IMG/VR virus record: IMGVR_UViG_3300009098_000014
Span: 1-41,010 of that record
Length of the DNA stretch: 41,010 nt
Source of the DNA: a virus
Reading direction: 5' to 3' (one strand)
The notes under the pieces were generated by a model. That model was given only the letters and a program-made list of their open reading frames with translations, was not told the DNA's origin and ran no database searches. Of this stretch, positions 6,608 through 28,737 are shown piece by piece; position 1 is the first letter of the stretch; every line of letters begins with the position of its first letter. A program made the translations under genes and the position numbers.

Positions 6608-9600
6608 ATGGCCGCGCTCGACGATGAAGACATGCCGGTTTATGGCTCCGGTATTGCCGCGTCGTCGCCCTATGACACGATAGCGGTACCGCCACCGCCG
6701 CAGCAGCAATCTGCGTTGGGCGACGGTGGTGATTACGGCGGCGGTGAAGAGCAGCAAGCGCCGATCTCGTCTCAGGTTCTCCAATTACTGGCCAAGCGCG
6801 GCTTAAGGACGCCAGCCCCCGAAGGCAGCGCCCGCGAGATGCTGCAGAAAGTCGCGAGAGAGCAACTCGTGAATTACCAGCAGCAGCAAGCGCAGCCTAC
6901 CAAGCAAACTTATGGCGGGTTCGACGCGCAGGCATCGCAAGGCCAGTTTGATCCGAACACTGAACTGGTTCCGGATTTGCCGCCGCCTGAGAAAAAGAAG
7001 GAAGAAGAGGGATACGGTCAGGCACTGGTGCGCGGTTTCCTGCGGGCTGGCGAAAACGCCAAGGCGACCGCCGATGTCCTCAAGGGCCAGAAGCCCAAGA
7101 CCAGTAAGGTAGAAGAGGCCGAGTTCGAGAAGCCGTTCGAACTAAAGGACGTGAAAGACCCAGCCCTGCTCACTAAAAAAATGATATTTGGCTTGTCCAA
7201 GAGCGCGCCGGAACTGGCGGGGATGATCCTTGGCGGCACTGTCGGCACAGCGGTTGGTGGGCCTGTCGGCGGTGTCGTTGGTGCGGCTACAGGTACTGGC
7301 GGCGTCGCTGCAATCCAAGCCATTGGCACAGCCTACGCCTACGAGCTTGAGAAGATAAAAGATAACCCGACGCCGGAAGCTATCGACAAAGCCTGGAGCA
7401 CTGCGCAGATCGAAGCCGCTAAAGCCTCTGGGGTATCAGCAGCATCCATAGCATTTTTCATCGTGGGTAAGCCGCTTGGATCAGTGCTCAAGAACATGAT
7501 GACCAAGTCGGTGGTTGACGCCGCCGGCCAGACGGTTGCGAAGACCGCCGGGGTGCCGTTGCAGGTAGGCGTACAGGCTGTTGGACAACCGGCAATCTCA
7601 GTAGCGGGTCAGGTCGCCGGTAATGTCGCCGAGGGTAAGCCTATCGGTGAGGGTGTGCCGGAAGCTGCGGTAAGTGCTATCCCCAATATCGCGTTTGACG
7701 CATTTGGCCGGGCGATCCATCGAGGTCTCAGTGGTCGTCAGCCCACCCCCGAGGCTACTCCCGGAGTCACGCAAGAACAGCAGCTAGCGTTAGGTCAGCA
7801 AGGCGAGTTGCCGCTACCTCCTGGTACTGGTACGCGACCGCCGCCAATCGATCCTAGTGGGCAGATGAATCTTCCCTTGGTGGGTGGTGCCGGCGAACGG
7901 CCGCCGGTACAAGGCGAGCAGATGCGTCTGCCGGACATCACCGGCCCAGGTCGTCAACCGCTGGGCGACCAAACCTATACACCCCCGACGGCGCCTCCGG
8001 TCCAGCCGGAACTACCAGGGTTCGAGCCGCCGACTCCCGGCGCGCCGGTGCGCGGTCCGCAAACAGAATTACCGCTGCAAGGCGGGGCTGAAACCCCGGC
8101 CCGGATGATTGGCGGTCAACGCATACCGGAGGGCGCGCCCTTCGTAGACGACGGGGCTACCTCGATAGGCGCAGCCGCCCGCCCCATCGGGCGAGTGGGG
8201 CCAGAGCCGGCAGAGGTTACTCCCGAAGTAACCGACCTCGCCCTGCAGCCGGATTTATTCAGAACTCCGACAGGTGAGGTACGCGGCCCGCAGATGGGCC
8301 TGCCGGGTACGGAAGACGTCAGCGTCGGCGGTACGCGGGTCCCGATGAACGCGCCGGTGCTCGAAACCGCGCGGCGTGCCGAACGAGACACCGGGGCCAG
8401 AAGCCCCATCGGCCGATTGGTAGAACCCGAGACGCAGCAAGACCGTCGACCAACCCAGGAAGAAGGCCAGCAAGACCTCCTCGGGCTGAAGACCGCCGAG
8501 GGGTGGACGTTCGAGCGCGACCACACTGGCCCCGGCTACGTCGTGAAGAACGCCGACGGTAACGTGATTTCCGTTGGCGATTCACAAGAGCAGGCTTTGA
8601 GATTTGCGCGCGAGCGCCATCCCGATCAGGTCGCGGCGACAGCCGCGCCGCGCATGACGGAAGAGCCGGCGGCGCAGCCGGCGGGGCGGCAGATCAACCA
8701 GGGTACTGGGCCTACGTTGCGCGAAGCCGAGGCGGCTGTAACAAGACGAGGCGGGGTTACCGAAGAGGTACCGGCAGAAGAGGCGAAACCAGCCGTAACG
8801 GGAACAAAAGAGCAACTTGTTTCAGCGGAGGAAAAGGCGCCGCCGGCCGAAGCCGCGAAGGTTGAGCCGGCGGCGAGTGGTCGGGATGCGGTGCCTGAGA
8901 CACCGAAAGCAGAAACACCTACTGCTCCGGTTAAGTTAAACCGCGAGCAGATTATCCAGAGACTGACTGAGCTTGGTGCCTCCAAGGCCGAGATCAGCTC
9001 GGCCCGCCGTAAGAACATCGTCAACGCGCGCAACGATTTGGCTGGCAAGGAAGCTAGTGTAGCTAAGACAGCCGAGGTTAAGGCGAAGGCCCTAAAGGCG
9101 GGCGAGGCCGCCGAACAGATCATCGCGGATCGCAAGGCCGAGGCTGAGGCTCGGGTGAAGCGCGTCACTGATAAAGCCAAGCAACGCGCGGAGGCGCGTG
9201 TAACAAAGCCGGCCGAGGAGTTGCGCACAGAAACTGAGACTGAAACTGAAGGCGCAACTACGCGCACCAAGGCCGGCGCATTCACGATGGGCGAAGGCGA
9301 AGAAATGCCGGCACGTGCTGCTCCGGCGCAGCCTAGTAAGCAGCCTAGCAAGATGCAGACAGGGGCGCGGAAGGAGAGCCGCGATCACACGAAATTAACC
9401 CCGACCTCCGGCCAGATAGCGCGGGTGTCGCAGCACATAGAACTGACAAGAAATCCGCTCGCGGTCACGCCGGGGCTGGAATCCACCCGTCGGGCGCAAT
9501 CTATTGTGCAGCACATTCTCGAACGGGGGATGGACCTTGCCAGGGCCATCAAGGAATTCGGCGAGCGTAAGCCTGGTACCCCCGGACCCAAGCCGAACGT

Positions 9601-12600
9601 CGAGAAACTGTCGCAGTACATTCGCCAGGAATTAGAGGCCGTCGAGACAACCGACGCCGCAGCGGACATACGCACCACGCTCAACGCGACAGCGGAGCGG
9701 CTGGCTAAGACCAGCAAAGAGTCGCGCACCACCACTCCCGAACTGCAAGCAGCCAGTGCAGCAGCGAGCGCACGCATCGAAAGGATTCTCGACAGCCTTA
9801 CCAAACAGCTTGAGCATTATCAGCGTGTCAGCAATGAGCGGGCGCGGCTGACTGAGATACTGCCGCAGATAGAAGCACTAGAGCGCGGCGAAAAGATTAA
9901 AGGTGTTGAGTCCTACGCTACCCCCCGCAGTGCTCGCACCGCAGAAGCTATGTCTAAACTGGGCGCAGTCAATGAGCCTATTCTGCAGCACGTTGAGCGA
10001 GCCGGTGAGGCTGGAGCAAGCCTGCATAAAATCTTGGACGATTTTATCGCTAACTCGATAGCCGCTCACGCGACACCACAAATGACTGAGCTGGCCCAAA
10101 TCCTTCGGCGGGTCATACCGGAGACTAAGGTGCGTCAAGGTGAAGGACGCATAGATAATAGGGCGGTAGGGCTGTACGACCCGGTCGCTCGTGAAATTTA
10201 TGTGGATACCAAGGCAGCACGGGCAGACGGTAGTGGGGCGGTGACGCTACTGCATGAAACCGTGCATCGGGGCACGCTGGACTATATTACGCATTTGTAT
10301 GAGACACCCGAGGTGCTTCTCACTCCTCGTGAATTTGCTCATAAGACCGCACTAGAATCAATCCGTTCTGAAGTGTCTCGGGTTTTAGACGAGGGTAATC
10401 TTAGCCGGTCGTTTGCCGAAGCTGAGGGTCTGGAGTACGCGCTGCGGGAGTACGACGCCGACAATGTGAGGGGTCCGCACGAACTGGCGACGCAACTCCT
10501 AACCCAGCCGGAAGTTTACAACATCCTATCGCGTGAGACCGCTAGCCACCGTTTCCGACAGGCACTCGACAATGTCGGTATGGGGATATCGTCGAAGGCA
10601 TCGATTTGGGACGGCTTCAAACGGATCGTCCGCAGTATTTTTGGGGTGCCTGAGCGCCTCGACTCGGTGCTCGACTACGCGATGCGGCCATTGACCGAGG
10701 TTCTTGAGACCGGCGCTAAGTTCCGCCCTGAGCATCTCACTGAAGCCCGGACCATCGCCCGCAATAACTTTGACGTGATTGGTCCGGAGTCGCAACGGAC
10801 CGCCGCCAGTATGAAGCGTATCAAGGACGCCGCTAAGAATTTCGCCGACCCCAAAGGACGGTTGCTCCTGCGTGGTGCGTTCCAGGGGGGCAACCTCCAG
10901 GCGATCCACGATATGCTTAAGCCGTACATCCCGTCGGTGACGGCGCACCGCGATGCGATAGACCGCGTCAAGAATGCGTCCGACGCGGAGGCGGTACGGC
11001 AGATCACCACCTACGACAATAACGGACAGCCGATCACCGAGTCGGCTATGGACAAAACAAACCGGCTCTCTAACCAGCTACGCGAGTCGCCGGATGTCCG
11101 TGAGATATCCAACCTGATGAGTGAGGTGCAGTACGCCGGCATGTCGGTGATCGACCCTGCCCGCAACGCGCACTTGACCACTCCCGAACAACTTCGGGAG
11201 CAGGCCGCCTTGCAACGCCGCTTCGACGATCTGCCCCAAGCGGCGCAGCAAATCTACCGTGAGCACAACGCACTGCGCGATGAGTGGCACCGAGCCGACC
11301 GGGAAGCCAAGATCGAGGAGTTTGTCGAGACGACCTTCGAGGAGTCAACTCCGGCCGAGCGCCTTGCCATCAAAAACCAGATGCGCACCCGCCAGGGTAT
11401 CCTGGACGTGATCGACCGGGCGGAGGCGACGCCTATCGGTCCGTTACTAGGGAACAAGGCAGCCTTGGCAAAGGTCTTTGCCGAGAGCCAGCGCCTCGGG
11501 TTTGTCGACGGCGACTATTTCGGATTACGGCGCAACGGCGAGTACATTGTCAGCTATGGCGACCCAAAGGTGCCGTCGAGTTATGGCGTTGAGCACTTCG
11601 AGACGGTCACCGCAGCCCAAACCCGCAAGGATGAATTGCACCGGGGTAACGTGGAGAAGGGCATACCGAAACGTACCGACGTGTCCCAGGTCTTTACTAA
11701 ATCCCAGATGCAATCGAATAAGCTGTTCCAGAACCCGGCGCAGGCGCTTGGTACGCTCGACCGGGCATTGGAGACCGGCGGCATTACCGGCGACCGTGCT
11801 GAGATAATCAAGGACCTCTACGCTACCCAGCTAATCCAGCAGGGTATCCGCGCTGCCACCCATACAATGCGGCGCGAGGGTATCCGGGGTGCCACCGAGG
11901 ACTACGCCCGCACATTGATGGGCGACTACCTCGCCCACAATGCCCGCATGGGGCATCTGAAGCACGGCGTCGAGGTCAACCGCACCCTGTTCCAGGCCGA
12001 GCACGAGAACCAACAGTTCCGCCACTCCGGTGCGAGCGAGCTAGAGGTTGCCCTTGCCGAGACCGGGGTGCGGGAACTGCGCAAGCGCCAGATACCGGCG
12101 GATGGCGACACATCAGCCGATATGATTGGCAACGGGTCGCGTGCACTGACCAGTTGGACCGTCGCAAGCTCGCTGATACGCCCGGCGCATTTCTTTATGA
12201 ACACGGCCGGCGCGCACTCGGCGGCTTCCGGGTTGATGGCTGGCCGCCATGGAGTGGTTGCGTCTAACTACGCGGTCGCCAAGGCGATGGCCCAGATGAC
12301 CGGCACCACGCTAGGGGTCTTTCGTCGCGATGCCTGGGCCGCCATCAAGAACGAAATGGGCGCGGTCAACTGGGACACGCTGAAGTTTTACCGGGAGCGG
12401 ATGCGCAATGCCGGGGATATCTCGCCGGAAAACGCTGACCTCGTCGCCGATATGCTGGACCGTACCAACATGGTCAACCAGTCGCGCACCCGCGAGATGC
12501 GCCGCATGGCCGGGCCGCAGGGGTATATGGCCGGACACAGCTACATCGCTCGGGCGATGGATGTCTTCAGTGCCGGTGAGCATGCCGCCGATAGCAGTAT

Positions 12601-13753
12601 GAGATTTGCCATCGCCAAGGCGGCTTTTGTGACCGAGTTCAACAAGAATGGCCATAACGCTGCAGAGGCGCTCAAATATTCCGAGCAGATCGCCCGCGAC
12701 TCGATGCCGGACTACAACCAGAAATCCAGGCTGGCGACGCCGCAGGGTACTCTGGGTAAGCTCGCTCCAGTGACGACCCAGTTCCGCCAGTTCGGCTTGC
12801 ACATGCTGGGCGTGCAGGCAAACCTGATCGCTAAGAGCCTGCGCGATGCGAACCCGGAGATACGTTCGCAAGCCCGTAAATCCCTAGCCCTTCTGCACAT
12901 GCAGCACATGTTGTGGACCGGCGTCGGCGGCGCGGTGTTCGGCTCGTTGCCGATGATGGCTGGGTTGGGACTGTGGGATTTCCTCCACGGTGAGGACCCA
13001 CACACCAACCGGGAGTGGGAAGTCCAGTCACGCAACATAGCGAAAGACATCGCTGGTAAGGGTGTCGCCGACGTAATCGCCTATGGGCTGCCAATGGCGG
13101 CCGGGATCGACACGCACCGGTCTTTGCAGTTTACCAACCTCCTCGGCGTGCCGGAATGGCGGACCCACGACAAGGAAGGCACGCTGTCTTTCGCCATCCA
13201 GATGCTAGGACCGTCGGCCGATAATGCCGCCGGGATGGCCGCGTCGGTATTTAACATGATGAAGGGCGACTTCCGCCCCGAGACCGTCGCCAAGCTGATG
13301 CCGCGCATCGTCAGGGACCCCATCGAGGCGTACCAATGGGGGACCGAGGGGTTGAAGACAGCTAAGGGCGACCTGACTATCGCCCGGCCGGAGCAGTTCT
13401 CGACGGCGGAGTTGATCGCCAAGGCGGCAGGCTTTATCCCCAAAACCGCGAGTGATGCACGTAATGTTCGCGCCACGATAGACGTGGTTAACAAGGTTTC
13501 GGACGCTGCCAAGCGCGCGATCCTCGACGAGTTCATCCGAACCCCTGCCGCTGACCGCAAGTCAGTGATGGATAAAATCTACCGCTACAACTCTATCGCC
13601 GAACCGGCTGAACGAATCACTGGACAGGCGATCCAGGCCCGGATACGAGAGCAGGCGATTATCAACGCGCAACCAAATCTTGCGGGTATGCGCGGCGTGT
13701 CGCGGCGCGAAGTACCGCTAATGGAGAACTGGACTAGGTTCGCTCGACAATAA
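6608..13753 (+). CDS. Giant 2381-residue internal virion/polyvalent-type protein with HETVH metallopeptidase motif
   Basis: The largest gene of the window. Glycine-rich hydrophobic segments occur at about 197-240 and 277-300, compatible with membrane insertion during ejection. Residues 380-760 are Pro/Gln/Glu-rich linker. A Lys/Ala/Glu-rich coiled-coil-like section covers about 770-930. H1216-E-T-V-H1220 is a zinc metallopeptidase HExxH motif, preceded by a strand-rich stretch (AVGLYDPVAREIYVDTKAA) and followed by GPHELATQLLTQPEVY, as in metallopeptidase domains of phage and plasmid polyvalent proteins. The C-terminal 900 residues resemble large polyvalent-protein-associated regions, with a hydrophobic patch near 2098-2128. 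It begins two bases after the preceding stop. Role as an ejected core protein is inferred from size, neighbours and domains. Confidence 0.75.
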   Translation: MAALDDEDMPVYGSGIAASSPYDTIAVPPPPQQQSALGDGGDYGGGEEQQAPISSQVLQLLAKRGLRTPAPEGSAREMLQKVAREQLVNYQQQQAQPTKQTYGGFDAQASQGQFDPNTELVPDLPPPEKKKEEEGYGQALVRGFLRAGENAKATADVLKGQKPKTSKVEEAEFEKPFELKDVKDPALLTKKMIFGLSKSAPELAGMILGGTVGTAVGGPVGGVVGAATGTGGVAAIQAIGTAYAYELEKIKDNPTPEAIDKAWSTAQIEAAKASGVSAASIAFFIVGKPLGSVLKNMMTKSVVDAAGQTVAKTAGVPLQVGVQAVGQPAISVAGQVAGNVAEGKPIGEGVPEAAVSAIPNIAFDAFGRAIHRGLSGRQPTPEATPGVTQEQQLALGQQGELPLPPGTGTRPPPIDPSGQMNLPLVGGAGERPPVQGEQMRLPDITGPGRQPLGDQTYTPPTAPPVQPELPGFEPPTPGAPVRGPQTELPLQGGAETPARMIGGQRIPEGAPFVDDGATSIGAAARPIGRVGPEPAEVTPEVTDLALQPDLFRTPTGEVRGPQMGLPGTEDVSVGGTRVPMNAPVLETARRAERDTGARSPIGRLVEPETQQDRRPTQEEGQQDLLGLKTAEGWTFERDHTGPGYVVKNADGNVISVGDSQEQALRFARERHPDQVAATAAPRMTEEPAAQPAGRQINQGTGPTLREAEAAVTRRGGVTEEVPAEEAKPAVTGTKEQLVSAEEKAPPAEAAKVEPAASGRDAVPETPKAETPTAPVKLNREQIIQRLTELGASKAEISSARRKNIVNARNDLAGKEASVAKTAEVKAKALKAGEAAEQIIADRKAEAEARVKRVTDKAKQRAEARVTKPAEELRTETETETEGATTRTKAGAFTMGEGEEMPARAAPAQPSKQPSKMQTGARKESRDHTKLTPTSGQIARVSQHIELTRNPLAVTPGLESTRRAQSIVQHILERGMDLARAIKEFGERKPGTPGPKPNVEKLSQYIRQELEAVETTDAAADIRTTLNATAERLAKTSKESRTTTPELQAASAAASARIERILDSLTKQLEHYQRVSNERARLTEILPQIEALERGEKIKGVESYATPRSARTAEAMSKLGAVNEPILQHVERAGEAGASLHKILDDFIANSIAAHATPQMTELAQILRRVIPETKVRQGEGRIDNRAVGLYDPVAREIYVDTKAARADGSGAVTLLHETVHRGTLDYITHLYETPEVLLTPREFAHKTALESIRSEVSRVLDEGNLSRSFAEAEGLEYALREYDADNVRGPHELATQLLTQPEVYNILSRETASHRFRQALDNVGMGISSKASIWDGFKRIVRSIFGVPERLDSVLDYAMRPLTEVLETGAKFRPEHLTEARTIARNNFDVIGPESQRTAASMKRIKDAAKNFADPKGRLLLRGAFQGGNLQAIHDMLKPYIPSVTAHRDAIDRVKNASDAEAVRQITTYDNNGQPITESAMDKTNRLSNQLRESPDVREISNLMSEVQYAGMSVIDPARNAHLTTPEQLREQAALQRRFDDLPQAAQQIYREHNALRDEWHRADREAKIEEFVETTFEESTPAERLAIKNQMRTRQGILDVIDRAEATPIGPLLGNKAALAKVFAESQRLGFVDGDYFGLRRNGEYIVSYGDPKVPSSYGVEHFETVTAAQTRKDELHRGNVEKGIPKRTDVSQVFTKSQMQSNKLFQNPAQALGTLDRALETGGITGDRAEIIKDLYATQLIQQGIRAATHTMRREGIRGATEDYARTLMGDYLAHNARMGHLKHGVEVNRTLFQAEHENQQFRHSGASELEVALAETGVRELRKRQIPADGDTSADMIGNGSRALTSWTVASSLIRPAHFFMNTAGAHSAASGLMAGRHGVVASNYAVAKAMAQMTGTTLGVFRRDAWAAIKNEMGAVNWDTLKFYRERMRNAGDISPENADLVADMLDRTNMVNQSRTREMRRMAGPQGYMAGHSYIARAMDVFSAGEHAADSSMRFAIAKAAFVTEFNKNGHNAAEALKYSEQIARDSMPDYNQKSRLATPQGTLGKLAPVTTQFRQFGLHMLGVQANLIAKSLRDANPEIRSQARKSLALLHMQHMLWTGVGGAVFGSLPMMAGLGLWDFLHGEDPHTNREWEVQSRNIAKDIAGKGVADVIAYGLPMAAGIDTHRSLQFTNLLGVPEWRTHDKEGTLSFAIQMLGPSADNAAGMAASVFNMMKGDFRPETVAKLMPRIVRDPIEAYQWGTEGLKTAKGDLTIARPEQFSTAELIAKAAGFIPKTASDARNVRATIDVVNKVSDAAKRAILDEFIRTPAADRKSVMDKIYRYNSIAEPAERITGQAIQARIREQAIINAQPNLAGMRGVSRREVPLMENWTRFARQ
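7756..7767. repeat. Dispersed palindrome, degenerate copy inside the giant gene
   Basis: TACTCCCGGAGT core with the outermost arm bases changed (C before and C after). It encodes ATPGVT in a Pro/Gln-rich linker. Confidence 0.7.
8217..8231. repeat. Dispersed palindrome, one-mismatch copy inside the giant gene
   Basis: TTACTCCCGAAGTAA. It has the same internal mismatch as the copy at 39577-39591. It encodes VTPEVT in a linker. Confidence 0.8.
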
Positions 13754-25025: not shown

Positions 25026-25670
25026 CTATTTGTGGGGCTGCGCGCGCCCGGCGTCGCGCTGCGCCTGGGTAGTCGCGTTGCGATGCGCCGGCTGCGACGG
25101 TGAGCGCTGGGCCTCGGTCTTCGGGGCCGGCGGAGTGAAGTTGATCATGCCGGTGCCTTGCGGCGGCACTTCGGTCGGCGGCTCCCACAGTTGCATCGCG
25201 AGTGAGCGCGAACGCCACGCGGCGTCGCTCTCGACCAGCCAGTTCCACAACAATGCCGAGAAGTTCGACTCGGCCAGATGCCGCGACCAGATGGTGACCG
25301 GGCCGTCCTTGGAATTGTCGTAGATTGCCTGGATCAATTCCATCGGGGCAGGCTCGGAGAAATCCATCCAGCTAACCCCGTCGCCGTTACCGGGGCCGTC
25401 GATGTTGAGGATTTTCAACGGCGGCTTGGGGTTGGCCCCGAACGGCGCTTCCCCCGACGGCGGCGGCACCTCGCGGGTGTGTTCGGGGATCGCGGTGTTC
25501 TCGCGGCCGGACCCCTGCGCCCGGTTATTGGTGCGCTCGGTGTGCTCGGCCACGACGCGCTCACCGGGTTGGCCAATGGCGTCGGCTTCGGCGGCTTGGC
25601 GGTCGCGTTCCCGTTGGCGCTCAGCCTGCTGCTCGGCGTGGGTTTGGGAGGTATTGGGTTCGTCGGCCAT
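25026..25670 (-). CDS. Hypothetical protein sharing a domain with the Ig-like protein
   Basis: 214 residues. The N-terminal 95 residues are charged and low complexity (AERQRERDRQAAEADA). Residues about 110-175 hold the shared domain: PAPMELIQAIYDNSKDGPVT, then IWSRHLAESN and AWRSRSLAMQLW. The C terminus is Gln/Ala/Pro-rich and basic. The paralogy with 24161-24754 implies a local duplication, with an Ig-like domain gained or lost. The function of the domain is unknown. Confidence 0.6.
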   Translation of the reverse strand: MADEPNTSQTHAEQQAERQRERDRQAAEADAIGQPGERVVAEHTERTNNRAQGSGRENTAIPEHTREVPPPSGEAPFGANPKPPLKILNIDGPGNGDGVSWMDFSEPAPMELIQAIYDNSKDGPVTIWSRHLAESNFSALLWNWLVESDAAWRSRSLAMQLWEPPTEVPPQGTGMINFTPPAPKTEAQRSPSQPAHRNATTQAQRDAGRAQPHK

Positions 25671-25713
25671 GCTGGGTCTCCTAGGGCACGCGGCGACAAG
25701 CCGCAGTTCTACT

Positions 25714-28485
25714 TTAACAGTTATCTTCCCGTTCTGCTGCCGTCAGGTTGCGGCCCCAACCGCCCGAAGAGGCTAGCGGCAACCCTTCGGCCCAATCCGG
25801 CACATAAGCAAACTGCCGCGCCAGCTCCTGGTCTATTGCCTCTGCGTCTTTTTCCGGCACACACAAATCGAGGCTATCATGCGTAGAAAGGAAAGGCCGA
25901 TAGCCGGTTTTGGCCTGCATCCGCACCGCGATATCGGTAACAATGATCCGCGATAATGCCTGGCTGATGTTCTCGCAATTATGCACTATGAATGGCCCTT
26001 GCGTACCCGCGACGACAAAGCGGTTCCGAGGTCCGGCGTTGACAACATCGTAGACGGGTCGGCTCCGACGCTCAGGCGATACAACAGTGTCGTATGGCCG
26101 ATACCTGTGAGCCTCGACGCTTCCGCTACCGTAATCGGACCAAACCACGTTGGTATGTAGACGTTGCCCCGCCTGTTGTTTGCCTGTTTGCGATGCGTCG
26201 CCCACTCGCAATTCGCCGGTGAATATCCAGCCGCGTTGTCCTTGCGCTCCAAGGCGAGGCCGCGTCTGTACGTCGGTCCCATATCGGCCCAGAAAGTCTC
26301 GAACGATTGCCATTCGGGGCACACGGTAATCCCCCGTCCCCCGTAGTTCGCCCAGGCTTGGTGGGTTGGCAGCTTGCATCGGTCCACCATCGACCGCCAT
26401 ACCCAGTACGCTGGGTGTCTCGACATCCCATGTGTCCGATTGACCGACGCAATTATTTCGTACCGCTGACAGCCGCACGATTTCTGTTCGCCCTTGCAGT
26501 AGATCGACGAGACCATCTGCTTGACCCGGCCGCAGTCGCAGCGAACCTCCCACAGAGGCCGTAGACCAGTACCCGTCTGGAGCGACCCAACGCGCCGCGT
26601 CGCTGTCAGATAGCCAAACCGCAGCCCGGTTATATCCTTCGCAGGCCGCCCCATCCACCCACCCGATTTCGGTTAAAACCTTATGGTGAGGAGTCATTGT
26701 GATGCCATCGACCAAAGCGGTCAATTGGGTTCCATTAAAGGTGACACCATCGTGGGTAACCCACTCAATACCGTCCCATAGGCGATCAGAAACGACGACT
26801 TCGATAATCGGCTTCCACCCGTGGTCGGTAAGGACTTCAGTGTTTGCACCAAGGCAAGCTTTCGCACCATAGAGGTATCTCGGAGTAGTATAGTTCGGGT
26901 CGATGTACGTCATCTGTGCGTCTGCGGGGTCCTGGCTTAACTCAGGGTAGCATATCCGCAGATCGTTCGGCAGGACGAAACAATCGTAGTCCACGTCGAT
27001 GGGGATGTGGCTGTAATCTACCCCGTACGGCATCCGGTCATAGCGCACGCGCCGAGATAACTTAACGATTTGTTTTAGCAGGTAGTTGAAATACTGCCAC
27101 AGTGCCGGTATCTCGTGGTAAACCGCGCGGTAATTGGTCACGATCACATCGGCGGTCTCGATGTTGAGCTTGAGGCTGATCCCGCCATTGCCGATGAATA
27201 ACATCTTCTGGAACTTCTCGGCACCGCAGCCATAGCCCAGCCCAAGGATGGCGGTTTTACCAACAAACCGTTCTAACTTGTCTTCCGGCGTCACCTCGCG
27301 GTCGTATATGATCGACGCGAACTCACAGTACACGTCTCGCTGCTCAGCGAAGGCATCCAACAGGATATTGCATTTTGCCAACCACGCTGTCATGCGAGCT
27401 TCGATCTGCGAAGCGTCACGGTGGACGATGCGCCAACCGGCTGGGGCTTCTATGGCCGTTCGCAATAGGCTGCCTCTTGGCAGGTTTTGCCAGTTAGCGC
27501 CGCCGTCGCCCGATAGCCTGTGAGTGCGCGCTCCCGAATACTTCAGCGGGATCGGTGCCCAGCCCACGTCTTTGCGCCACGGCGTCTCGGCCAAACGCAG
27601 CATATTGCGCGACCGGGTTTCTTCTAACGTCGACTTCTCCGAGAGCCGCGCCGCCAGTAACAACTGCACGAAGGGTGGGAGTGTGTCGTCGGCGCAGAGT
27701 TCCTTAAAAGCCCAGTCGCCTTTAGCCAATGCCGGTATCTGATCGCCGGTCGTGGGCGAGGTTTTCATCGGCACCTCGACACCGTGCTCCTGCAGCAGTT
27801 TTGCAAACTGCGGCTGCGACGAAAACACTGATCGCGGTATCTCGCTGACACGGGCCAGCGCCTCGGCCTTATCAGCCAGAACCCGGTCATAATTCTGCTG
27901 AAGCACTGACGCGTTGAGCCGCACTTGCGGCAGGATGAACATGCGGGCGATCATGTCGATGATTGCCAGCTCACTGGCGCGAAAGCGCGGGCGCAGCTTT
28001 TGGAAGACCGCGTGACAGAGGTCGGTATCCCGCGCGCAATACTTCTCGTAGAGTTCCAGCTCCGCTGACGTGAAATCCCGCAGCCGCTTGCCTTTGGCCT
28101 TAATAACTTCGTCGCCCTTGGGCGGCAGCCCGAGATACTCCGCGACTTTGGCGAGGCTCGACCGCCCAATCGTCCAGTGCGTGGTGGCGCGGCTCATGCT
28201 CAGCGTGTCGAGGTACATCCTGGGCACATGGCCGTAATGCCAAGCTAAAATCCCGCCATCGAACCGGATGTTGTGTGCGAGTACAGCCGATGTAGACCAG
28301 TCGATCCGGCCCAATGCCGGCTTAATGTCCCGGCCGACATATACCTCCGTCGGCGTGTCACCCACTTTCACCGAGCACATGATCGCCTCGAAGCGGGCGT
28401 CCTTGATGTAGTCGACCTCGCTCATCTTTGACAAGCTATAGTCCTGGTCGTACATCGTTTCAAAATCGAGAGTAATTAGCGCCAT
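25714..28485 (-). CDS. Family A DNA polymerase with 3'-5' exonuclease domain, interrupted by an intein
   Basis: 923 residues, about 630 after removal of the intein. Exonuclease motifs: LDFETMYD (D7, E9), AHNIRFDGG, and YCARDTDLCHAVF. Polymerase motifs: TRxLSGDGGANWQNLPRG type region near 330; motif A RDASQIEAR near 355; motif B region RFVGKTAILGLGYGCG near 405-420; motif C THDSLD with H869-D870 and Ser where Glu is commoner. Intein residues 544-836 split the conserved YGAKA/CENISQALSR segment before motif C. GGGG lies upstream of the ATG. It replicates the phage genome with the primase-helicase and SNF2 helicase. The intein must splice for activity. Confidence 0.92.
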   Translation of the reverse strand: MALITLDFETMYDQDYSLSKMSEVDYIKDARFEAIMCSVKVGDTPTEVYVGRDIKPALGRIDWSTSAVLAHNIRFDGGILAWHYGHVPRMYLDTLSMSRATTHWTIGRSSLAKVAEYLGLPPKGDEVIKAKGKRLRDFTSAELELYEKYCARDTDLCHAVFQKLRPRFRASELAIIDMIARMFILPQVRLNASVLQQNYDRVLADKAEALARVSEIPRSVFSSQPQFAKLLQEHGVEVPMKTSPTTGDQIPALAKGDWAFKELCADDTLPPFVQLLLAARLSEKSTLEETRSRNMLRLAETPWRKDVGWAPIPLKYSGARTHRLSGDGGANWQNLPRGSLLRTAIEAPAGWRIVHRDASQIEARMTAWLAKCNILLDAFAEQRDVYCEFASIIYDREVTPEDKLERFVGKTAILGLGYGCGAEKFQKMLFIGNGGISLKLNIETADVIVTNYRAVYHEIPALWQYFNYLLKQIVKLSRRVRYDRMPYGVDYSHIPIDVDYDCFVLPNDLRICYPELSQDPADAQMTYIDPNYTTPRYLYGAKACLGANTEVLTDHGWKPIIEVVVSDRLWDGIEWVTHDGVTFNGTQLTALVDGITMTPHHKVLTEIGWVDGAACEGYNRAAVWLSDSDAARWVAPDGYWSTASVGGSLRLRPGQADGLVDLLQGRTEIVRLSAVRNNCVGQSDTWDVETPSVLGMAVDGGPMQAANPPSLGELRGTGDYRVPRMAIVRDFLGRYGTDVQTRPRLGAQGQRGWIFTGELRVGDASQTGKQQAGQRLHTNVVWSDYGSGSVEAHRYRPYDTVVSPERRSRPVYDVVNAGPRNRFVVAGTQGPFIVHNCENISQALSRIIVTDIAVRMQAKTGYRPFLSTHDSLDLCVPEKDAEAIDQELARQFAYVPDWAEGLPLASSGGWGRNLTAAEREDNC
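25978..26856 (-). other. Intein coding region within the DNA polymerase gene
   Basis: 293 residues in the polymerase frame. Block A is CLGANTEVLTDHGWKPI with Cys1; block B is GITMTPHHKVLT (TxxH-type); block F is RPVYDVVNAGPRNRFVV; block G ends FIVHN, followed by Cys+1 of the C-extein. All nucleophiles needed for class 1 protein splicing are present: C1, H-N, C+1. No in-frame LAGLIDADG or HNH endonuclease is visible between blocks B and F. That space is instead occupied by an HNH-type gene in another frame (25986-26654). Confidence 0.9.
25986..26654 (-). CDS. HNH-type homing endonuclease nested out of frame inside the intein
   Basis: 222 residues, shifted one base relative to the polymerase frame on the same strand. 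The N terminus KDITGLRFGYL is followed by a cysteine knuckle region (RCDCGRVKQM, SIYCKGEQKSCGCQR). The middle, HPAYWVWRSMVDRC, NYGGRGITVCPEW, FWADMG, LERKDNAAGYSPANCEWATH, RKQANNR, is the phage HNH/AP2-associated homing endonuclease family. The C terminus (VAEASRLTGIGHTTLLYRLS) is a helix-turn-helix-like DNA-binding repeat. It ends 8 bp before the intein boundary. GGGTGGGTGG precedes the ATG. It presumably cuts intein-less polA alleles. Confidence 0.85.
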   Translation of the reverse strand: MGRPAKDITGLRFGYLTATRRVGSLQTGTGLRPLWEVRCDCGRVKQMVSSIYCKGEQKSCGCQRYEIIASVNRTHGMSRHPAYWVWRSMVDRCKLPTHQAWANYGGRGITVCPEWQSFETFWADMGPTYRRGLALERKDNAAGYSPANCEWATHRKQANNRRGNVYIPTWFGPITVAEASRLTGIGHTTLLYRLSVGADPSTMLSTPDLGTALSSRVRKGHS

Positions 28486-28506: not shown

Positions 28507-28737
28507 TTATAGGGTTACTCCGGGAGTAATCGGTGCGGTTCGGCGTCTTAGTCGGCTGCACCCACACGATTTTGTGTTGCCGCTGCGCAGGTTGGTACCG
28601 ACCACACGTATCGTATTACCGCAGTCACACGCGCACTCCCACGCGAATTTTCTTCTGATGCGGCCAGCTACCTTAACTGCCACAAGGCGCCCAAACCGCT
28701 GACCGGTAATGTCTTTTATCGGTGGGCCGCCGCGCAT
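28507..28737 (-). CDS. Truncated paralogue of the intein endonuclease N-terminal zinc domain
   Basis: 76 residues. KDITGQRFGRLVAVKV, WECACDCGNTIRVVG and SGNTKSCGCSR parallel the first 65 residues of the nested HNH protein at 26654. The HNH core is missing. The last residues, APITPGVTL, come from a copy of the dispersed palindrome (28515-28529). It sits immediately upstream of polA, the usual place for a free-standing homing gene. Either a remnant or a stand-alone DNA-binding domain. Confidence 0.65.
   Translation of the reverse strand: MRGGPPIKDITGQRFGRLVAVKVAGRIRRKFAWECACDCGNTIRVVGTNLRSGNTKSCGCSRLRRRTAPITPGVTL
28515..28529. repeat. Dispersed 15-bp palindrome upstream of polA
   Basis: TTACTCC-G-GGAGTAA, perfect arms. 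It starts 30 bp before the polA start and encodes the end of the preceding gene. Confidence 0.95.

Follow-up and report, generated by a model that had tools for sequence, protein, structure and literature searches.

Can one stretch of phage DNA serve at once as the middle of a splicing intein within a DNA polymerase and, in another reading frame, as a complete homing endonuclease gene, and if so, how much does each frame constrain the other? The question is raised by the polA locus of the 41,010-nucleotide viral record IMGVR_UViG_3300009098_000014, which was analysed at its full length and is called the window below. On its minus strand, an ORF at 25714–28485 encodes a family-A phage DNA polymerase (profile searches: PF00476, E=7e-16; phrog_17, E=1e-75) of 923 aa with an intein and ~630 aa without. 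The intein, 293 residues long (25978–26856, minus strand), is inserted between YGAKA and CENISQALSRI of the polymerase, and has Cys1, TPHH in block B and a terminal HN followed by Cys+1. The initial annotation had placed both ORFs, the intein boundaries and these motifs exactly where we find them. Within the intein, and all on the minus strand, the N-terminal splicing part (residues 1–67, 26656–26856) is coded in the intein frame only and is conserved in all nested loci; it is followed by a doubly constrained zone in which residues 68–101 lie over HNH codons 1–34 (26554–26655), by a linker predicted to be disordered (residues 102–259, 26080–26553), and by the C-terminal splicing part (residues 260–293, 25978–26079). 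Elsewhere in the window, the plus-strand ORF at 6608–13753 (2381 aa) has no PHROGs match.

Taken alone, the intein frame of the window matched no Pfam model. A profile built from 40 such inserts found the Mtu RecA intein structures and others in the PDB at E~3e-6, seven members matched NCBIfam intein_Nterm, and SNF2-borne members matched neighbouring Hint models. Among 40 members, C1, T55, H58 and N293 are invariant and H292 is nearly so. In the AlphaFold model of the intein frame, both ends (residues 1–~100 and 261–293) are mostly at pLDDT ~90–98 and take a Hint fold, with predicted strands at residues 87–91 and 97–101; the N-terminal splicing part is at 90–98, the C-terminal part at 86–97, and the middle is below 50 with no secondary structure. 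Foldseek searches of the PDB with this model gave only inteins as top matches. Judged by its motifs, profile matches and predicted structure, the window insert is an intein with a Hint fold, and presumably it splices. It is not a split intein, which has its halves on separate polypeptides; here they share one open frame with 0 stops.

The second gene, also on the minus strand (25986–26654), encodes an HNH-type protein of 222 aa in the +1 frame relative to the intein. As initially described, it is shifted by one base, lies wholly within the intein, and its stop codon falls 8 bp short of the intein boundary. The family searches proposed at that stage led from the intein frame to an intein profile and fold, and from the HNH frame to the phage HNH family phrog_374 (E=1.3e-53). 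The protein is predicted to consist of a Zn-type N-terminal domain, a beta-beta-alpha core and a C-terminal HTH. Its AlphaFold model has pLDDT 91, with ~90 or more over most of its length and ~50 at residues 211–222. The predicted beta-beta-alpha element spans residues 134–159; the invariant core residues are R137, N148 and N160, with no clear first catalytic His. Foldseek comparison of the HNH model with the PDB returned no usable fold match. Order and disorder are complementary in the two AlphaFold models: the disordered intein middle is, in the other frame, the confidently folded nuclease, and at the 3' end the roles are reversed, with the intein C part ordered and the HNH tail disordered. 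Directly upstream of polA there is also an N-terminal fragment of a second HNH gene (28549–28728, minus strand; E=5e-11, and E=6e-22 to phrog_374), 45% identical to the nested copy and present in one relative as well (L202), which may be a remnant of an earlier or free-standing HNH copy.

Out-of-frame nesting is a widespread class and no oddity of the window phage. Further loci came from scanning viral and genome contigs with HNH alignments and from searching every one of the three frames with HMMs of the N and C halves of the intein, stops being masked, which made openness of the frame no precondition. In ~90 phage and prophage loci, partly near-copies and so not all independent, covering at least three host genes, the HNH gene is nested out of frame in an open intein. 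At ~81 of these the halves share a frame that runs from one to the other with 0 stops, and the HNH gene is shifted by one or two bases; at ~10 further terminase loci the N-part HMM match is weak and the arrangement is plain. The initial annotation saw no in-frame endonuclease in the window intein, and this extends to every locus with both halves detected, since an HNH gene in frame with its intein was found in 0 of the ~81. A search for in-frame HNH inteins of this HNH family likewise gave none, the one candidate (L081) being an HNH domain fused in frame to a topoisomerase-like ORF with no intein. The host genes are polA at the ENxxQA site, polA at the motif-B site, SNF2 helicases and the terminase large subunit (TerL; assigned by phrog_38, E=1e-91). 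With the polymerase and HNH protein as tblastn queries, the arrangement was found in APSE-1, in Caulobacter phages (including RLK) and in Shewanella SFCi1. The motif-B polA site is occupied in the Salmonella Jerseyviruses SE2 and VT223, E. coli Pubbukkers, Pseudomonas MR14, EBPR siphovirus 2, Vibrio 97.13 and Gardnerella AB1, and prophage carriers include Paenibacillus, Alicyclobacillus, Novosphingobium, Clostridiales and Spirochaetae. The first 50-odd loci had a single relative frame and suggested a one-frame rule, which we dropped because the motif-B polA clade has its HNH gene in the other relative frame (shift 1; shift 2 in the Gardnerella copy). In the HNH tree, the polA copies form one group with the SNF2 copies beside it, and the TerL copies stand apart with 99% support; a free-standing HNH gene beside a capsid-like ORF (L076) joins the polA/SNF2 group. 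This one quick tree and the frame differences together suggest that out-of-frame nesting arose at least three times.

The distribution of the intein speaks to what the nested nuclease might do. Comparison of polymerases with and without the intein, as had been suggested from the outset, showed that the insert is missing exactly in close relatives: in polymerases ~80% identical to that of the window, the uninterrupted sequence reads YGAKA^CENLAQALARI in L204, L205 and L208, and two further intein-less relatives, L203 and L206, have VEN where the others have CEN. With such exact empty sites in ~80% identical polA genes, intein presence is patchy. The relative L007 is 99–100% identical to the window around the intein except for a tract over the HNH core (26086–26585, minus strand) at 80–89% identity, in which both frames are kept open; the HNH core was apparently exchanged between these near-identical phages. 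Empty and full sites in close relatives, together with this tract, suggest exchange with the HNH gene at its centre. A second tract divergent from L007 (81–94%) covers the polymerase exonuclease/N-terminal region at 27486–28085 of these otherwise near-identical phages. From the start codons, the Shine-Dalgarno-like sites described below and the exact empty sites, we infer that the HNH protein drives homing of the intein. One could instead suppose that the nested gene is a former free-standing gene merely harboured in a mini-intein, cutting elsewhere, for example in an adjacent gene as in collaborative homing, or simply carried as a passenger. Free-standing members of the family are indeed common: phage Rollin has one directly behind its intein-less polA, and the free-standing L076 gene is sister to the nested clade. 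Beside the intein-less close relatives themselves, the only free-standing HNH gene found is a partial one, in L206. We consider such harbouring rather unlikely in view of the long co-conservation of one HNH clade with polA inteins over very diverged polymerases, of the sister HNH clade with SNF2 inteins, and of a single site occupied patchily and exactly.

The reading we prefer, that of a nuclease mobilising its own intein, also calls for a nuclease made as a separate protein. Ahead of the HNH ATG of the window there is a Shine-Dalgarno-like stretch (26655–26676, minus strand) within the block B codons (TTAACCGAAATCGGGTGGGTGG), with a pairing energy of –6.4 kcal/mol to the anti-SD. Pairing at or below –4 kcal/mol is found ahead of 95% of 55 nested genes, compared to 28% of control NTG codons, and the observed pairing is stronger than that of the same intein codons synonymously recoded (–7.2 vs –5.3, p=1e-6), most clearly in the TerL copies; in the polA-site inteins the signal is partly a by-product of the block B Glu-Gly-Trp codons. 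The HNH frame usually opens only shortly, by a few codons, ahead of an ATG or GTG that is located where block B ends. Nested start codons and Shine-Dalgarno-like sites thus make it likely that the HNH protein is translated separately. Programmed frameshifting from the polymerase frame, which would yield the HNH protein as a fusion to the N-extein or N-intein in place of internal initiation, appears to us quite improbable. In many loci the open HNH frame extends 6 to ~30 codons upstream of the start, which leaves room for a shift, and in the second clade the shift would need to be –1. Against this, window-type loci would need a +1 shift, the window and its relatives have an in-frame stop only ~6 codons before the start codon, and the Shine-Dalgarno-like site stands ahead of the start in 95%.

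Whether both frames are genes at all was addressed with a null in which synonymous codons were shuffled within each HNH gene, preserving the protein and its codon use. The HNH gene of the window has 0 host-frame stops where 4.7 are expected (P=0.003). By the same shuffling, the 56 nested copies in the first frame have 0 against 359 expected, and 126 non-nested family members have, in the same frame, 2013 against 2169. In the second frame, 32 copies have 0 stops against 113 expected, and their relatives 286 against 276; in this clade 'unavoidable stops' are zero by construction, and the informative part is the contrast with the relatives, of which 41% have zero. Over all 88 nested genes, ~472 host-frame stops are expected and none is seen. 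In the first frame, a host codon consists of HNH position 3 and the next positions 1 and 2, and this is the only frame where every stop is removable by a synonymous T-to-C change. T as the end of an HNH codon before AA, AG or GA occurs in 0/389 cases in the polA copies and 0/345 in the TerL copies, compared to ~21% and ~32%, respectively, elsewhere in these HNH genes. We therefore give practically no weight to the reading that either frame is open without meaning, merely by chance in GC-rich DNA with few stops. The GC of the window is 0.61, and some GC-rich non-nested HNH genes have only 1–3 stops in that frame, but the counts of 0 against 359 and 0 against 113 include AT-richer copies (APSE-1, L014 and the Gardnerella phage), both frames belong to recognised families and folds, and the codon-shuffling tests refute chance opening. 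Signs that the polymerase frame is broken in homologues, or that the HNH frame is conserved no better than by chance, were sought as well; the former is open in every intact relative and conservation of the latter is far above chance. HNH-ORF introns are common in phage polymerase genes (e.g. PMC3428280), but a group I or II intron removed at the RNA level, with the intein-like frame incidental, has a negligible likelihood here and is rejected, as there is no Rfam match at E<=1 over 25500–27400, the intein frame is open in all intact copies, Cys1, TxxH and HN/Cys+1 are conserved, and the fold is that of Hint.

With both frames of the nested arrangement regarded as real, we can ask which constrains which. 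Between the window and its relative L006, changes at HNH codon positions 1/2/3 number 17/14/58, identity over the same DNA is 89% in the HNH frame and 72% in the host frame, and 32 of the 37 HNH-silent changes alter the intein. Compared with a stop-free synonymous null, host-frame identity is clearly raised opposite HNH residues 4–12 (0.317 vs 0.212, z 13.2) and residues 13–36 (0.220 vs 0.173, z 8.2), and hardly so over the remaining ~170 HNH codons (0.229 vs 0.222; 0.330 vs 0.318; 0.174 vs 0.164). The constrained zone corresponds to intein residues ~68–101, the last ordered strands of the N part in the AlphaFold model. Beyond HNH codon ~36, conservation of the intein frame hardly exceeds what the HNH protein forces, so that the frame is kept open without being kept in sequence. 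The initial proposal that mutations must satisfy both frames thus holds at the amino-acid level for approximately the first 36 HNH codons; over the other ~170, the intein frame mainly needs to be free of stops. Strict double coding is limited to ~35 codons; elsewhere the DNA is an endonuclease gene, and the frame that overlaps it need only lack stops.

Taking these results together, we consider it highly probable that a splicing-competent polA intein contains, in another frame, an HNH homing-endonuclease gene that is complete and autonomous, and the sequence evidence supports the reading of the initial annotation, an intein with an independent, out-of-frame, fully nested endonuclease gene. In the scenario we propose, the polymerase message would be read through, and the intein ends (residues 1–101 and 260–293) would form a Hint domain that splices itself out to leave an intact polymerase, the DNA between them being read as a disordered linker. 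Ribosomes would also initiate within the intein, at the Shine-Dalgarno-like site provided by the block B codons, to make a separate HNH protein. In phages that co-infect or reside in the same cell, this protein would cut polA at its uninterrupted site, and intein and endonuclease would be copied together into the cut gene during repair. Selection would then retain the nuclease sequence and, in the intein, the residues needed for splicing as well as the final strands of the N part, and would purge stops from the linker. Because an in-frame stop would end the intein, a nuclease gene with its own start and stop can be accommodated only in a shifted frame if the intein is to stay unbroken. In the likely course of events, a phage HNH gene that had been free-standing inserted into the linker of an intein able to splice, and host-frame stops were lost afterwards. 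The outcome would be a mobile pair, with the host gene protected by splicing and both partners spread by the nuclease. A single new stop in the linker would turn such an intein into two halves with the gene between them, the split-intein layout of fractured genes.

Several known systems resemble parts of this arrangement. One is a direct homologue: P45/P46 of APSE-1 (NC_000935.1) have the same polA intein site and the same relative frame, and GenBank has P46 (HNH) inside P45, annotated as a short internal piece of 141 codons, a comparison made by annotation only. The raw fact of nesting is therefore already visible in GenBank; in the open-licence literature searched, we found no description of P46 as an intein with a nested homing gene. 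In full-length inteins such as PI-SceI, the endonuclease coding sequence also lies between the N and C parts and homing is expected, but their endonuclease shares the frame of the splicing domain and remains part of the intein after excision, whereas in our loci it is encoded in a shifted frame as a protein of its own. Split inteins of fractured genes, with a free-standing endonuclease gene between the halves, were reportedly described by Dassa et al. in 2009; these share with our loci an autonomous endonuclease gene located between intein halves, but they make two polypeptides, whereas here the intein frame is unbroken and one stop codon away from that state. The free-standing phrog_374/phrog_3377 phage HNH genes (e.g. 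in Rollin, L005) are of the same family with the same domain order; they lie outside inteins and contain alternative-frame stops at the expected number. The ShiLan domain, the case in print that comes nearest, is an out-of-frame HNH insertion in mycobacteriophage methylase genes; its authors report that intein splicing motifs and an intein fold are both absent, and conclude that the domain stays in the methylase (PMC11855218; Arsenault, Gosselin and Gogarten 2025). It shares with the present loci an HNH gene out of frame in an open host frame, patchy distribution and proposed homing, and differs in that here the HNH gene lies within a complete Hint splicing domain, so that the host protein can be restored. 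A review lists full-length (with in-frame endonuclease), mini and split inteins as classes (PMC7765530), and for an intein with an out-of-frame endonuclease our search of open-licence papers found only the ShiLan papers. We think it probable that these loci make up an undescribed large class of mobile inteins, each unbroken and housing, out of frame, an autonomous endonuclease gene with its own start and stop. The class would have at least three origins, with nesting in either frame, and could plausibly represent a step between inteins whose endonuclease is in frame and split inteins whose endonuclease is free-standing.

If so, many inteins annotated as plain polymerase or terminase, and passing for mini-inteins with an odd linker, would carry a hidden, separately encoded endonuclease, which changes the reading of mini-inteins and suggests a route to split inteins with free-standing endonucleases. 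The loci also form a large collection of natural genes that overlap on the same strand, an ordered region in one frame lying opposite a disordered one in the other, and with members in cultured phages, including an E. coli phage, splicing and homing are testable.

A few loci depart from the simple pattern. In a Salmonella-type locus (L225, 3436–4306), the N and C intein halves are in different frames by a one-base difference, which may be a sequencing error or a real break, and an Arsenophonus prophage (L138, 3586–4941) has a decayed APSE-like copy in which frame disturbances join HNH and intein pieces. The annotation of Salmonella phage SE2 (L220, 1160–4259) splits the polymerase into two genes, owing to a frame change that lies downstream of the intein; in VT223 and SE129_1P, unlike SE2, the polymerase is in a single piece. 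Two SNF2 helicases (L060, 604–3891; L070, 267–3605) have an apparent second intein besides the HNH-bearing one, matching Pfam Intein_splicing/Hint at residues ~163–456 and 191–480, respectively, and a RecB-like exonuclease ORF of Pseudomonas phage Rollin (L005, 6154–7950) seems to contain a further, apparently in-frame intein ending in THN.
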